Shown one piece after another: positions 7,782 through 28,015 of a DNA stretch of 64,000 nucleotides. Under the pieces are notes generated by a model. The model did not search any database and had not been told where the DNA came from. It saw nothing but the letters and a program-made list of their open reading frames with translations. Within the stretch, counting starts at the first letter, position 1. Each line of letters begins with the position of its first letter. The stretch is from Pontimicrobium aquaticum (GTDB lineage Bacteria > Bacteroidota > Bacteroidia > Flavobacteriales > Flavobacteriaceae): positions 62,001-126,000 of the forward strand of contig NZ_SUPL01000002.1 in assembly GCF_005047595.1 (NCBI RefSeq). Direction: 5' to 3'. The translations under genes and the position numbers were made by a program.

Positions 7782-7812
7782 CGCTCACAAAGTTCAAAAA
7801 CTTACTGAAATG

Positions 7813-7930
7813 TTATCAAGAAAGGTGGAGGGAATAGACCCTGTGAAACCTTAGCAACCCTTTAGTAATAAAGAAGGTGCTAAATTCTACCTAAAAAAGC
7901 GATTCATTTATCGTGGATTTGGATAGATAA
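7813..7930 (+). promoter_or_regulatory. SAM-I (S-box) riboswitch
   Basis: The aptamer reads TTATCAAGAAAGGTGGAGGGA, then GACCCTGTGAAACCTTAGCAACC, then AAGGTGCTAAATTCTACC and a closing GATAA. P1 is TTATC (7813-7817) with GATAA (7926-7930). The AAGAAAGGTGGAGGGA kink-turn strand, the GAAACC core and the GGTGCTAAATTC strand are all canonical SAM-I consensus. It precedes metY and a full methionine pathway, as expected for SAM repression. The rest of 7733-8054 holds the promoter upstream and two hairpins downstream; no gene is seen there. Confidence 0.95.
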
Positions 7931-7935
7931 CTCAA

Positions 7936-22475: not shown

Positions 22476-23369
22476 TTAACTCGTCAACTCCCTAAATAAA
22501 CTCTCCAAACTCGCACTTTTTTGGTTTAATTGTAGAATTTTTAAATCGTTATCATGTGCAAAATCAAATACGTAAGAGCGCATATCTTCAGTAGAATCAA
22601 AGGTTATTTCATACATAAAATCATAAAGATTTTCAATTTTAACAACTTTAGGCATACTCTTTAAAAAAGCTTCTTCAACTCTATAATCAAAAGCCACAAC
22701 AATCACTTGTTGCGAGCCTTCTCTAAGTTCTTTTAAGGTTTTATCAGCAACAATTTCACCTTTATTTATAATAATCACACGATCGCACATAGCTTCAACC
22801 TCTTGCATAATATGAGTCGATAAAAACACGGTTTTTTCTTTACCAATGGTTTTTATAAGGTTTCTAATATCTGCCAATTGGTTTGGGTCTAATCCTGTGG
22901 TTGGTTCATCAAGAATCAATACATCAGGATTGTGCAATAAGGCATTTGCTAATCCAACACGTTGACGATACCCTTTAGAAAGCTGTCCAATGGTTTTATG
23001 TGCTTCAGGTGTTAAGCCAGTAAGCTCTATAACTTCCGCAATTCTCTCTTTAGAGACATTGTATATTTTTGCATTAAACGCTAAATATTCTTTTACATAC
23101 ATGTCTAAGTACAAAGGGTTGTGTTCTGGCAAATACCCAACACTTTGCTGTACTTTTTTGGTTTCGGTAGTCACATCAAAATCATTAACCTTGGCAGCTC
23201 CTATAGTAGCATCAATGTAGGTGGTTAATATTTTCATCATGGTCGATTTTCCAGCACCATTAGGTCCTAAAAATCCAACCACTTCAGGTTTTTTAACTTC
23301 AAAACTTACATTATTAAGTGCTTTTTGGGTTCCGTAAATCTTTGTGAGTTGCTCTACTTTTATTGACAT
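22476..23369 (-). CDS. gldA: Gliding motility ABC transporter ATP-binding protein
   Basis: 297 residues. Walker A is GPNGAGKST (35-43), the ABC signature is LSKGYRQ and Walker B is LILDEP, followed by TTGLDP. The sequence and length fit GldA, the ATPase that pairs with GldF/GldG and is needed for gliding in Flavobacterium. gldF and gldG are not adjacent here, so assignment relies on sequence resemblance; a general ABC-2 type export ATPase is the alternative. The presence of gldB and gldC at 48071 supports a gliding-lineage host. It diverges from the aromatic amino acid operon leader. Confidence 0.75.
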   Translation of the reverse strand: MSIKVEQLTKIYGTQKALNNVSFEVKKPEVVGFLGPNGAGKSTMMKILTTYIDATIGAAKVNDFDVTTETKKVQQSVGYLPEHNPLYLDMYVKEYLAFNAKIYNVSKERIAEVIELTGLTPEAHKTIGQLSKGYRQRVGLANALLHNPDVLILDEPTTGLDPNQLADIRNLIKTIGKEKTVFLSTHIMQEVEAMCDRVIIINKGEIVADKTLKELREGSQQVIVVAFDYRVEEAFLKSMPKVVKIENLYDFMYEITFDSTEDMRSYVFDFAHDNDLKILQLNQKSASLESLFRELTS

Positions 23370-23447
23370 GCAAAAAATATTTAATCAAAAATAAACATTA
23401 AATAAACTTTATTTTAGGTAAAACACCTAAAAAAATGCTTTAGTATT

Positions 23448-23475
23448 TTGATTTTTGAAAATAATAGTTACTTTA
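23448..23475 (+). promoter_or_regulatory. Candidate promoter of the aromatic leader
   Basis: TTG at 23448-23450, a 17-base spacer, then TTACTTTA at 23468-23475, an imperfect match to TAnnTTTG. Transcription starting ~7 bases later would give a short 5' end just before the leader peptide at 23496. Confidence 0.35.
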
Positions 23476-23495
23476 GCCCAATCAATTAGGATATA

Positions 23496-23570
23496 ATGAC
23501 ATCAAACTTTGCATATTATAACTGGTTTTATTTCTTTTTTAGCAAAAGAAACGAGACGTTATATGTGTAA
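23496..23570 (+). CDS. Aromatic amino acid leader peptide (attenuator peptide)
   Basis: A 24-codon reading frame: ATG 23496, TAA 23568-23570. Read directly, the peptide starts MTSNFAYYNWFYFFFSK and ends RNETLYV. Ten of 24 residues are aromatic (Phe5, Tyr7, Tyr8, Trp10, Phe11, Tyr12, Phe13-15, Tyr23), with Phe11-Phe15 consecutive. This is the hallmark of pheL/trpL-type leader peptides, in which ribosome stalling senses charged tRNA. It sits 56 bases before pheA, directly upstream of an intrinsic terminator (23594-23622) and of segments able to form an alternative pairing. Too short for routine gene finders. Confidence 0.85.
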   Translation: MTSNFAYYNWFYFFFSKRNETLYV

Positions 23571-23622
23571 TTTATAGATATAAATTTAAATGTAAGTCTC
23601 GATGAAAATCGGGACTTTTTTT
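23531..23622 (+). promoter_or_regulatory. Transcription attenuator of the phe/tyr operon
   Basis: Terminator 3:4: AAGTCTCGAT (23594-23603), loop GAAA, ATCGGGACTT (23608-23617), 10 bp with one wobble, then a T-run to 23622. Antiterminator 2:3: CGAGAC (23552-23557) can pair with GTCTCG (23596-23601), destroying the terminator. Upstream hairpin: TTTCTTTT (23531-23538) with AAAAGAAA (23544-23551). A ribosome stalled at the Phe/Tyr codons leaves 23552-23557 free (read-through); one reaching the stop at 23568 covers it (termination). Geometry matches classical attenuation; the mechanism itself is inference. Confidence 0.8.
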
Positions 23623-23626
23623 ATAT

Positions 23627-24454
23627 ATGATTAAATCAGTAGCCATACAAGGAGTAAAAGGATCGAACCATTATATTGTGTCACAACAATATTTTAATAA
23701 TGGTGTGTCGGTTATGGAATGCTTAACTTTTGATGAGGTTGTAAACAACTTAATTACTAAAAAGTGTGATGCAGCTATTATGGCAATAGAAAACTCAATT
23801 GCAGGCTCTATTATTCCAAATTATGCCTTAATTGATGGTCAAAATTTACATATAGTAGGAGAGCAATATTTAGATATTCAACATAATTTAATGGCACTTT
23901 CTGGACAATCTATTAATGATATCACTGAGGTATATTCGCATCCAATGGCTTTGCTACAGTGTAAAGAATTTTTTAAGAAGCATCCTCATATTAAATTGGT
24001 TGAAGATAAAGATACAGCCGAAGTTGCACAGCGTATTCAAAAGGGTCAATTAAGAAATATTGGAGCTATCGCCACCGAAATGGCAGCCGATATTTTTGAA
24101 GTTGAAATTTTAGCTAAGAGCATTCAAACCATAAAGCACAACGAAACCCGATTTGTTATTGTAAAGCGCACAAATTCTGAAATACCTGAAAATCAAATAA
24201 ATAAAGCATCTTTGAAGTTTGAGTTAGACCATAAACGAGGTAGTTTAGCAACTATTTTAAATGTAATGAGTGATTGTAAATTAAATTTAACTAAAATACA
24301 GTCTTTACCTAAAATAGAAACACCTTGGAAGTATGCATTTTTTGTGGATGTTACTTTTGATGAATATGAAGATTACACAAAAGCGAAATCAATTATGAAT
24401 ATTATGGCACAAGACTTTAAAGTGCTTGGAGAATATACAAATGCAAAGTTATGA
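23627..24454 (+). CDS. pheA: Prephenate dehydratase
   Basis: 275 residues: a periplasmic-binding-like dehydratase domain (about 1-180) containing IENSIAGSI and the catalytic TRFVIVKR stretch, followed by an ACT regulatory domain (about 195-275; GSLATILNVMSDCKLNLTKIQSLP). It converts prephenate to phenylpyruvate. No chorismate mutase domain is present; that activity is fused to the DAHP synthase three genes downstream. First structural gene after the leader peptide and attenuator; its start is 4 bases after the terminator T-run. It overlaps the next gene by 4 bases (ATGA), indicating coupling. Confidence 0.96.
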   Translation: MIKSVAIQGVKGSNHYIVSQQYFNNGVSVMECLTFDEVVNNLITKKCDAAIMAIENSIAGSIIPNYALIDGQNLHIVGEQYLDIQHNLMALSGQSINDITEVYSHPMALLQCKEFFKKHPHIKLVEDKDTAEVAQRIQKGQLRNIGAIATEMAADIFEVEILAKSIQTIKHNETRFVIVKRTNSEIPENQINKASLKFELDHKRGSLATILNVMSDCKLNLTKIQSLPKIETPWKYAFFVDVTFDEYEDYTKAKSIMNIMAQDFKVLGEYTNAKL

Positions 24455-25596
24455 TTGAAGGAGCCAAGAGATTGCATACAGTTGAAGAATACTATTTCTC
24501 CAAAAAATTGCGAGAAGTAAGCATGCTAAAAGCAGCAGGGAAACCAATTATTAATTTAGGCATTGGAAGTCCAGATTTGCAGCCACCACAAAAAGTAGTA
24601 ACTGCATTGATTGAAGGATTGCAAGATGCAAATGCTCATAAATATCAAAGCTATCAAGGTTTGCCTGAATTACGGGAAGCCATGGCAGAATTTTACCGCG
24701 AACAGTTTCAGGTGCATTTAAGTCCAATGACCGAGATTTTACCTCTCATGGGAAGTAAGGAAGGTATTATGCATATTTCTATGGCTTATCTTAATGAAGG
24801 CGATGAGGTATTAATTCCTAATCCTGGATATCCAACCTATCAATCGGTTACCAAATTATTAGGTGCTAAACCTATACTTTATGAGTTGGATGAAGCCAAT
24901 AATTGGATGCCTGATATCATGGCTTTAGAAAAGCAGGATTTAAGTAAAGTTAAGCTAATGTGGATAAGTTATCCGCATATGCCAACAGGTGCGCAAGCTA
25001 ATTATAAGGTATTTGAAGAGTTAGTAGATTTTGCAAAAAGAAATAATATACTGCTAGTAAATGATAACCCATACAGCTTTATTTTAACCGATGCTCCAAG
25101 AAGTATTTTAAAAGTCAACGGTGCAAAAGAGGTGTGCATTGAATTAAATTCTTTGAGTAAAACCTTTAATATGGCTGGATGGCGTGTAGGAATGGTGTTA
25201 GGTGATGGTAAGCATATCAATAACATTTTAAAAGTAAAAAGTAATATGGATTCTGGTATGTTTTATGGAATCCAAAAAGGAGCTATTGAAGCGTTACGTT
25301 GCTCAAAATTATGGTATTTAAGCTTAAATAGTGTGTATGAACAACGTCGAGCATTGGTATGGAAATTGGCCGAGGCTTTAAACTGTACTTATGATAAGAA
25401 TGCTTCGGGATTATTTGTTTGGGCAAAGTTACCGCCCTACACAAAGGCAGAAGAATTTATAGATGTGTTATTAAAAAACAATCACTTATTTGTAGCTCCA
25501 GGAACCATTTTTGGAAGTCAGGGAGAAGGTTACATTCGATTTTCTTTATGCGCATCAACTGAAGATATACAAGAAGCAATAACTAGAGTATTATGA
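24451..25596 (+). CDS. Class I/II aminotransferase of the aromatic operon
   Basis: A 381-residue PLP fold-type I aminotransferase. The PLP lysine is Lys237 in LNSLSKTFNMAGWR; NDNPYSF (residues 204-210) and the C-terminal arginine in GYIRFSL are also present. It overlaps pheA and tyrA by 4 bases on each side, so it very likely transaminates phenylpyruvate and 4-hydroxyphenylpyruvate (or prephenate), giving Phe and Tyr. Sequence alone also allows an aspartate or LL-diaminopimelate type aminotransferase; the operon makes the aromatic role most likely. Confidence 0.85.
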   Translation: MIEGAKRLHTVEEYYFSKKLREVSMLKAAGKPIINLGIGSPDLQPPQKVVTALIEGLQDANAHKYQSYQGLPELREAMAEFYREQFQVHLSPMTEILPLMGSKEGIMHISMAYLNEGDEVLIPNPGYPTYQSVTKLLGAKPILYELDEANNWMPDIMALEKQDLSKVKLMWISYPHMPTGAQANYKVFEELVDFAKRNNILLVNDNPYSFILTDAPRSILKVNGAKEVCIELNSLSKTFNMAGWRVGMVLGDGKHINNILKVKSNMDSGMFYGIQKGAIEALRCSKLWYLSLNSVYEQRRALVWKLAEALNCTYDKNASGLFVWAKLPPYTKAEEFIDVLLKNNHLFVAPGTIFGSQGEGYIRFSLCASTEDIQEAITRVL

Positions 25597-26444
25597 AAAA
25601 CATATATATCATAGGAGTTGGATTAATAGGCGGAAGTTTAGCATTAGATATTAAGAATTTAGATGCAACAACCACTATTTATGGAATCGATAAGAGTGAT
25701 GAGCATTTAGATATTGCTTTAGAGAATGGTATTATAGACCGCAAAGCAACTATTGAAGATATTAAAAATGCCGATTTGGTTATTGTGGCTATTCCTGTAG
25801 ACGTAACGGTTAAAGAATTGCCGAAGTTGTTAGATATGGTGTCTGATGACACCTTAATTGTGGATGTTGGCTCAACTAAAGAAGATATTTGTTCAGCTGT
25901 AGAAAATCATCCTAAGCGTAGAAATTTTTTAGCAATGCATCCAATAGCTGGGACGGAGTTTTCTGGTCCAAATGCAGCTATTTTGGGATTGTATAATGGA
26001 AAGACCAATATTATTTGTGAAGTGGAAGAAACTGCTTTTAAGCTTCAGGAAAAAGCGTTAAAACTATTTTCAGATATTGGGATGCGCATGCGTTATATGA
26101 AGCCAAAAGCACATGATAAACATATAGCTTATATGTCGCATTTATCACATATTAGTTCATTTATGCTGGGGAAAACAGTTATTGATAAGGAAAAAAATGA
26201 ACGTGATATTTTCGATATGGCAGGCAGTGGATTTGAGTCAACTGTTCGACTAGCTAAAAGTTCACCAGAAATGTGGACACCAATTTTCGAACAAAATAAA
26301 ACCAATGTCATTGAAACCTTAGAAGAATACATCAATAATCTAACGCAATTTAAAGAATTAATGCAGCGCGATGATTTTGAAGCTATTTACAACGAAATGA
26401 AAAATACGAATTACATAAAACAAATTCTTAACGGAATTGCATAA
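25593..26444 (+). CDS. tyrA: Prephenate dehydrogenase
   Basis: 283 residues with an N-terminal Rossmann motif GVGLIGGSLA (from about residue 8) and the dehydrogenase region with HPIAGTE and the substrate-binding stretch HDKHIAYMSHLSH. It oxidatively decarboxylates prephenate to 4-hydroxyphenylpyruvate. No ACT or chorismate mutase domain is seen; the length fits the stand-alone form. A 4-base overlap with the aminotransferase and a 9-base gap to the DAHP synthase place it firmly in the attenuated operon. Confidence 0.95.
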   Translation: MKNIYIIGVGLIGGSLALDIKNLDATTTIYGIDKSDEHLDIALENGIIDRKATIEDIKNADLVIVAIPVDVTVKELPKLLDMVSDDTLIVDVGSTKEDICSAVENHPKRRNFLAMHPIAGTEFSGPNAAILGLYNGKTNIICEVEETAFKLQEKALKLFSDIGMRMRYMKPKAHDKHIAYMSHLSHISSFMLGKTVIDKEKNERDIFDMAGSGFESTVRLAKSSPEMWTPIFEQNKTNVIETLEEYINNLTQFKELMQRDDFEAIYNEMKNTNYIKQILNGIA

Positions 26445-26453
26445 AAACAAGTT

Positions 26454-27539
26454 ATGGAAAACAAAAAAGAACTTAGAACATGGTTAGATAATTTTGGGTT
26501 AGATCATCCATTAGTAATTGCTGGACCATGTAGTGCCGAAACCGAAGAACAAGTATTAACTATAGCACATCAACTAAAAGATAGTGATGCTACTGTTTTG
26601 CGTGCAGGAATTTGGAAGCCCAGAACGCGTCCAGGTAATTTTGAAGGTGTAGGTGCTTTAGGCTTAAAATGGATGCAAAAGGCTAAAGAAGAAACAGGAT
26701 TACTTACTGCTACCGAAGTTGCTAATGCAAACCATGTAGATTTAGCGTTACAACATGATATTGATATTTTATGGATTGGAGCGAGATCTACGGTTAGTCC
26801 GTTTATCGTACAAGAAATTGCCGAAGCACTTAAAGGAACAGATAAACCTGTATTAATTAAAAATCCTGTAAATCCAGATTTAGCACTTTGGCTAGGTGCT
26901 GTAGAGCGTTTTTACACCGCTGATGTTAAGAATTTAGGGGTGATTCACAGAGGGTTTTCAACTTATGAAAAAACGAGATACCGTAATAATCCAGAGTGGC
27001 AATTACCAATCGATTTACAAAATAAATTCCCAGATTTACCATTAATATTAGACCCTTCGCATATTGCAGGAAGACGTGATATTATTTTCGATTTATGCCA
27101 GACAGGGTTGGATTTAAATTTTGATGGATTAATGGTAGAAACACATCACAATCCAGATAAAGCTTGGAGTGATGCTGCACAGCAAATTACGCCTTCTGAT
27201 TTGATTCAGTATATGGAAGATTTGAAGATTAGAAAAGAAACCTCTGCTGAAGCTGAATTTAAAAATAGCATTAACACGTTGCGTACTCAAATAGATGTAA
27301 TAGACCATCAATTAATAGAGGTGTTAGGTAAGCGTATGAAAGTATCAGATGCCATAGGTAATCTTAAAAAAGCGAATAACGTAGCAGTATTACAATCTAA
27401 ACGATGGAACGAGATTTTAGGTAAAATGATATTAGAAGGTGAGCAACATAAATTAAGTGAAGAGTTTGTATTGAGAATGTTTAAAGCCATTCACCAAGAA
27501 TCGATTAATCATCAAGAAAAGATATTTAAACAACAATAA
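26454..27539 (+). CDS. Bifunctional DAHP synthase / chorismate mutase
   Basis: 361 residues. Residues ~1-262 form a class I-beta (KDPS-like) DAHP synthase, with AGPCSAETEEQ, RAGIWKPRTRPGNFEG and the metal/substrate segments LDPSHIAGRR and VETHHNPDKAWSDA. Residues ~268-361 are an AroQ chorismate mutase (INTLRTQIDVIDHQLIEVLGKRMK). The mutase is at the C-terminus, opposite to the Bacillus arrangement. The chain controls both the entry step to the shikimate pathway and the chorismate branch point, and the mutase domain may carry prephenate feedback. Last gene of the operon, followed by a strong terminator. Confidence 0.95.
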   Translation: MENKKELRTWLDNFGLDHPLVIAGPCSAETEEQVLTIAHQLKDSDATVLRAGIWKPRTRPGNFEGVGALGLKWMQKAKEETGLLTATEVANANHVDLALQHDIDILWIGARSTVSPFIVQEIAEALKGTDKPVLIKNPVNPDLALWLGAVERFYTADVKNLGVIHRGFSTYEKTRYRNNPEWQLPIDLQNKFPDLPLILDPSHIAGRRDIIFDLCQTGLDLNFDGLMVETHHNPDKAWSDAAQQITPSDLIQYMEDLKIRKETSAEAEFKNSINTLRTQIDVIDHQLIEVLGKRMKVSDAIGNLKKANNVAVLQSKRWNEILGKMILEGEQHKLSEEFVLRMFKAIHQESINHQEKIFKQQ

Positions 27540-27540
27540 T

Positions 27541-27567
27541 AAAAAAGGTGCCAATGGCGCCTTTTTT
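27541..27567. terminator. Bidirectional intrinsic terminator
   Basis: A6, the stem GGTGCC (27547-27552), loop AAT, GGCGCC (27556-27561) with one wobble pair, then T6. It serves the aromatic operon and the convergent minus-strand gene, whose stop codon lies in the T-tract. Confidence 0.85.
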
Positions 27568-28015
27568 AATTAGTTCTTTTAAAAATATATCTGGTTATAA
27601 AAATACCATTGCCATCACCTTTACCTGAGTCGCTTTCAACAGCACTTGTAACAAAAGCTAATTCCCAACCTTCACTAATCATAGAATTGATTTTAGAAGA
27701 AATTACAGCATCGTTAGCAGCAATATTTTGAAAACGGATGCCTCCAAGGTTAAAAAAGTTTAAAAGTTTAGTTTCTTCAAAATCTTTAACACGAATATCT
27801 TTTCTTTTAGATTTGTTTCTAGTGTTATCATCTTCTGTTTGCTCAGACGTAAATTCTTTATAATCTCTATCTTCTTCTGTAGAAATCAGCCTAGATCTAC
27901 CTAAGCCAGCAGGAACAATAGACTCTACACTAGTAATTACTTTATACTCTACTTGTGCATTAATTTCGATGCAAACAAAAAATAAAAGAGCTATTAATAC
28001 TGGAATTTTTTTCAT
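27566..28015 (-). CDS. Small exported protein, DUF4177-like
   Basis: 149 residues. A signal peptide (1-20, ending INAQ) is followed by a small alpha/beta protein with the pattern EYKVITSVES near the N-terminus and INSMISEGWELAFVTS with a terminal FITRYIFKR, resembling DUF4177-type proteins in which a conserved Gly-Trp-Glu-Leu precedes a strand. The middle (about residues 45-80) is highly charged and probably disordered. No function is known. Single gene between the aromatic operon and rsgA. Confidence 0.55.
   Translation of the reverse strand: MKKIPVLIALLFFVCIEINAQVEYKVITSVESIVPAGLGRSRLISTEEDRDYKEFTSEQTEDDNTRNKSKRKDIRVKDFEETKLLNFFNLGGIRFQNIAANDAVISSKINSMISEGWELAFVTSAVESDSGKGDGNGIFITRYIFKRTN

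Follow-up and report, generated by a model that had tools for sequence, protein, structure and literature searches.

A predicted ribosome-mediated attenuator with an aromatic-rich leader peptide upstream of the pheA operon in Pontimicrobium aquaticum and other Bacteroidia

Just upstream of pheA in P. aquaticum lies a short reading frame rich in aromatic codons, followed by a terminator hairpin; this arrangement raises the question of whether ribosomes translating the frame decide if the operon is transcribed. We analyzed a 64,000-nt stretch of this genome (the window; contig NZ_SUPL01000002.1, positions 62,001 to 126,000) together with related loci. We consider it highly probable that a ribosome-mediated transcription attenuator following the trpL/pheL logic controls the pheA-aminotransferase-tyrA-DAHP synthase operon. 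The initial annotation had proposed such a classical attenuator, and the proposal is supported by the anatomy of the leader, its conservation, covariation of the pairings, geometry, and operon content.

Leader peptide, hairpins, and operon in the window

The features of the locus are collected in Table 1. The sequence and its translation bear out the annotated 24-codon frame, which carries 10 aromatic codons and ends at 23570. The uninterrupted aromatic run within it, initially given as five residues, comprises six (W-F-Y-F-F-F), and its last codon lies 14 nt upstream of region 2. Of the short ATG ORFs that the two strands of the window contain, 788 in all, only this leader has at least 8/10 aromatics (the runner-up has 6), and no ORF with at least 8/10 aromatics arose in 3000 simulations of intergenic composition.

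Table 1. Leader elements and genes of the pheA operon, in window coordinates
Feature	Position	Strand	Details
Bacteroidota-type promoter, predicted	23447..23476	+	TTTG 23447-23450, 18-nt spacer, TACTTTAG 23469-23476
Leader peptide gene	23496..23570	+	24 codons, MTSNFAYYNWFYFFFSKRNETLYV, then stop; kept in relatives
1:2 protector/pause hairpin	23509..23570	+	Fold; above synonymous-codon controls in 60 loci
Control codons W-F-Y-F-F-F (codons 10-15)	23523..23540	+	Aromaticity kept across loci
2:3 antiterminator	23552..23601	+	Fold (-15.0 kcal/mol) and covariation
3:4 intrinsic terminator hairpin and T-run	23594..23622	+	Fold, family alignment, locus scan
pheA, prephenate dehydratase	23627..24454	+	PF00800
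Class I/II aminotransferase	24451..25596	+	PF00155
tyrA, prephenate dehydrogenase	25593..26444	+	PF02153/PF20463; NF006307 above cut-off
DAHP synthase fused to chorismate mutase	26454..27539	+	PF00793 and PF01817
Terminator-like hairpin, operon end	27540..27568	+	Closes the operon

All three classical pairings (1:2, 2:3, and 3:4) fold in the window sequence. The terminator consists of a stem-loop (23594-23617) with a GAAA loop and a T-run (23618-23622) that ends 4 nt before the pheA ATG (23627), as annotated, and its stem, initially described as a perfect 10-bp helix, has 10 pairs including one G.U. Its folding energy is -13.0 kcal/mol, and the hairpin folds much better than shuffled sequences (z about -4.9). 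Because the upstream gene (22476-23369) is on the opposite strand, this terminator cannot serve that gene. The 5' arm of the terminator is shared by an alternative pairing partner, region 2 (23552-23564), so that the two structures are mutually exclusive. The reported complementarity of CGAGAC (23552-23557) to 23596-23601 is present, and the antiterminator extends past these six pairs: 23559-23564 pairs with 23590-23595, and the full structure has 12 bp with one bulge and an inner 7-bp helix. The window fold also contains a 1:2 protector/pause hairpin with the control codons inside it; this hairpin is formed by an inner helix (23531-23538 with 23544-23551) and by pairing of the region 2 GAGAC with 23525-23529.

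The predicted promoter ends 19 nt before the leader ATG, and the same -33/-7 arrangement is found upstream of 64 of 115 leaders; shuffled sequences would give 0.15. The P. aquaticum genome encodes two PF00793 proteins, the second of which is a KDO8P synthase, and no type II DAHP synthase was found in it. The DAHP synthase of the operon is the only recognized one in the genome and is the entry enzyme for all three aromatic amino acids; shared control of this operon by Phe and Tyr, and perhaps Trp, therefore makes sense.

Conservation, spacing, and distribution of the element

Relatives do carry, upstream of pheA, the conserved aromatic-rich ATG frame that the initial annotation had named as the mark to look for: leader and terminator were scored automatically at 117 loci, which are related and hence not independent. 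Among 80 pheA loci from named genomes, nearly all have an aromatic-rich ORF upstream, the exceptions being two truncated contigs and the Gelidibacter locus L025.

Measured from the first base of the last aromatic codon, region 2 begins 10 to 16 nt, mostly 12 to 14 nt, downstream in 113 of the 117 loci (median search span, 50 nt). The stop codon floats over about 40 nt: relative to the start of region 2, it can lie as much as 30 nt downstream or 8 nt upstream. Given the general size of the ribosome footprint, the front of a ribosome whose A site holds the last aromatic codon would come to rest at about the edge of region 2, as control by stalling needs. The control codons are thus positioned where a stalled ribosome would free region 2 and an unstalled one would cover it.

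Selection on the run is visible at the codon level. In its last six codons we counted 333 changes relative to the window sequence, and 293 of them are synonymous or aromatic to aromatic (228 being exchanges among F, Y, and W), compared with 8 of 45 possible single-base changes; these figures are descriptive, the rows being related. Phe and Tyr codons occur in every scored leader, and Trp codons are optional, present in 74 of 117 leaders and in 10 of 30 leaders from a class-wide sample drawn nearly entirely from outside the family. Since positions in the run stay aromatic yet switch freely between Phe and Tyr codons, the suggestion of shared rather than single-amino-acid control holds for Phe and Tyr; its extension to Trp is the weaker part.

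Covariation of stems 2:3 and 3:4, which had likewise been named as a check, was evident in relatives. Because a MAFFT alignment shifted some region 2 rows by one column (e.g., in locus L057), we used the last aromatic codon alone to position a 20-nt stretch, and we permuted the terminator arms among loci. Region 2 scored 17.05 against its own terminator arm and 9.4 to 12.8 against the arms of other loci, and in a permutation of the arms of 30 class-wide loci, the observed sum was reached in 0 of 10,000 trials. The paired region 2 occurs in 31 distinct duplex types, and region 2 and the 3' arm of the terminator vary together (GAGAC, GAGGC, CGGGAC, GGGATT, GCCGGGACT, CAGGGA, GGCAGGA, and others). 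A cruder 6-bp count (108 of 117 loci versus 66.8 in the control) separates less sharply because A/U-rich arms pair by chance. Within stem 3:4, both sides change at five of nine pairs in the family alignment. For the 1:2 pairing, the mean was 0.75, compared with 0.65 in synonymous-codon controls (Wilcoxon P of about 8e-8, 60 related loci); this effect across loci is modest and lends the pairing weaker support than the window fold does.

Across the class, we sampled 296 Bacteroidia genomes, of which 90 have a recognizable pheA, and read 60 upstream regions. The element precedes pheA in 47 of these 60 regions (39 by automatic scoring and 8 by inspection), which span 16 GTDB family groups, and is absent from pheA in the other 13. 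In four of these 13 regions pheA is internal to its operon, and in three of the four (L142, L143, and L144) a leader (MLITAAIYFTFFYFYF...) and terminator lie instead upstream of the DAHP synthase gene. Relocation accounts for at least three of the 13, the wider region having been inspected in three of the four cases with an internal pheA. The element seems to be genuinely absent from four regions of family f13 and from a few more.

Outside the class but within the phylum, 17 of 20 pheA genes lack the element. The three exceptions (L184, L185, and L186) carry pheA genes most similar to the Bacteroidia type (42 to 45% identity), which suggests that pheA and its control may have been transferred together. 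Because only these most Bacteroidia-like of the outside genes carry the element, it seems tied to that pheA lineage and to travel with it.

At one locus, L178 (G352:C25:18500-20500), two complete attenuators lie in tandem upstream of pheA; both leaders, MNNLVSTFRFFGFFFFRKEGAMS and MNQNTQQNFSFFGFFFFKWKSEAVD, are rich in Phe and contain no Tyr.

Proposed mechanism and alternative readings

According to the attenuator model, plentiful Phe-tRNA and Tyr-tRNA would let the ribosome traverse the aromatic run, mask region 2, and end at the stop codon; with region 2 masked, 3:4 would pair and RNA polymerase would halt at about 23622. Scarcity of charged Phe- or Tyr-tRNA, or possibly Trp-tRNA, would stall the ribosome in codons 10 to 15 with its leading edge just short of region 2, so that 1:2 would be disrupted, 2:3 would pair, and the operon would be transcribed. 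In a leader that is not translated, 1:2 would form and termination would be the default. From this architecture we infer that the leader is translated, that ribosomes stall in it, and that the response runs in this direction; the operon is very probably turned on when the supply of charged Phe or Tyr tRNA falls short. Sensing of Phe- and Tyr-tRNA is the natural reading of the control codons. Trp may be sensed as well, given that the operon supplies its synthesis too, although a separate Trp-rich leader stands before trpE.

Could the frame instead encode a functional small peptide, perhaps a membrane peptide, with the hairpin serving as the terminator of its gene and pheA being transcribed by incidental read-through? 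The hydrophobic character of the peptide and its conservation within the family fit this reading, but outside the aromatic run the peptide drifts freely in sequence, length, and stop position, while the spacing to region 2 and the complementarity of regions 2 and 3 are maintained. The element also moves to the DAHP synthase gene when that gene heads the operon; relocation where pheA is internal counts for operon control. We regard the small-peptide explanation as extremely improbable. Translational attenuation, in which the hairpin would block the pheA start until a stalled ribosome opens it, could draw on the closeness of the T-run to the pheA ATG in the window. This reading is disfavored by the distance from terminator to pheA, which varies from 6 to 223 nt: a hairpin as far as 223 nt upstream cannot generally cover the start, and the T-run is retained in these relatives. 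We judge it very unlikely.

A different kind of terminator control, with an RNA-binding protein, a T-box, or a riboswitch as the sensor and the aromatic ORF as a secondary feature, is known from other attenuators, and the same window contains a SAM riboswitch. However, no Rfam sensor was found at the site, and the strong selection at the codon level and the footprint-like spacing speak for the ORF, leaving this reading hardly credible. Our Rfam scan of the pheA leader at two thresholds returned no family that fits: RF01859 (Phe_leader) reached 19.3 bits (E of 0.6), below its gathering cut-off of 55 bits, and neither RF01692 (Bacteroid-trp) nor a T-box family matched there.

Returning to the ribosome-mediated attenuator, we lean on balance toward a broader reading in which one attenuator type, ancestral to most Bacteroidia and moving with one pheA lineage, would join the charging of Phe- and Tyr-tRNA (facultatively Trp-tRNA) in a single read-through decision for the operon that holds the sole DAHP synthase. 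The element would then act as a shared sensor of aromatic starvation, doubled in tandem in at least one lineage.

Relation to known systems and to other amino acid leaders

In E. coli, pheL-pheA has a Phe-rich leader peptide, alternative 1:2, 2:3, and 3:4 hairpins, and a terminator upstream of pheA. The P. aquaticum element resembles this system (RF01859) in its leader peptide, its three hairpin pairings, and its terminator before pheA, and differs from it in mixing Phe with Tyr, and often Trp, in its four-gene operon with tyrA and DAHP synthase, and in its phylum and promoter type. The E. coli thrABC (Thr and Ile) and ilvGMEDA (Ile, Val, and Leu) leaders each sense several end-product tRNAs of a branched operon; here the set would be Phe and Tyr, with Trp optional. 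A comparative study by Lopatovskaya et al. in 2010 reportedly covered attenuation across bacteria. Bacteroid-trp (RF01692) is a closer neighbor, occurring in the same phylum and the same genome and likewise combining a leader, in this case Trp-rich, with a terminator, but it belongs to the trpE operon and uses other codons.

A transcriptome study of F. psychrophilum from 2021 reported strong clues for leader-peptide attenuation of amino acid operons and pointed to conserved 5' elements upstream of pheA and hisG (PMC9723704). The 5' element at pheA is described there as conserved in genera of the Flavobacteriaceae and without an Rfam hit, and it is very probably the element analyzed here; its main text gives neither the peptide nor the pairings nor a reach beyond the family (PMC9723704). 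In light of this study and of Bacteroid-trp in Rfam, the remark in the initial annotation that such systems are little described in Bacteroidota is roughly right, but such systems are not new there. We found no further earlier description of it in the open-access literature.

The element is a well-supported example of a known attenuator type that is not registered in Rfam, and it appears clean enough for a family of its own. New here are the spread of the element across Bacteroidia, its three-way covariation, the constant spacing from control codon to region 2, the relocation, and the exchange of Phe and Tyr codons. Its distribution indicates that attenuation of the classical, ribosome-mediated type is general in Bacteroidia and probably old. 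The fixed spacing amid drift offers a natural measure of the leading edge of the ribosome, in a phylum with unusual translation initiation, and dual-tRNA sensing can be tested directly thanks to the unrestricted exchange of Phe and Tyr codons.

Leaders rich in Trp, His, and Ile/Val, each with a terminator, also lie upstream of trpE, hisG, and ilvD, respectively, in the same genome. The one RF01692 match of the genome (58 bits; G000:C12:531526-531649, minus strand; L161/L163) lies directly upstream of trpE, where the leader MNSILNNTWWWNFRN is followed by a terminator. Upstream of hisG (L162; G000:C20 at ~93.9k, minus strand), the His-rich leader MNFIQLHHHHFHTCTQAS and the terminator after it form a probable his attenuator, and upstream of ilvD (L165; G000:C12 at ~46.8k, plus strand), the Ile/Val-rich leader MDYKMRYIANIIIIVIINSS and a terminator-like hairpin form a probable branched-chain attenuator. 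At locus L181, an ORF with Ile/Thr clusters (MNNFNQNTIIQRASSFRSILCFGITTTFITTLWGC; 2403-2510) upstream of a thrA-type gene (~2540) is a possible Thr/Ile leader. Elsewhere in the window, the SAM riboswitch (RF00162, 77.2 bits) occupies 7810-7933 on the plus strand, and a Flavo-1 RNA (RF01705, 53 bits), a motif of unknown function, occupies 2675-2779 on the minus strand.
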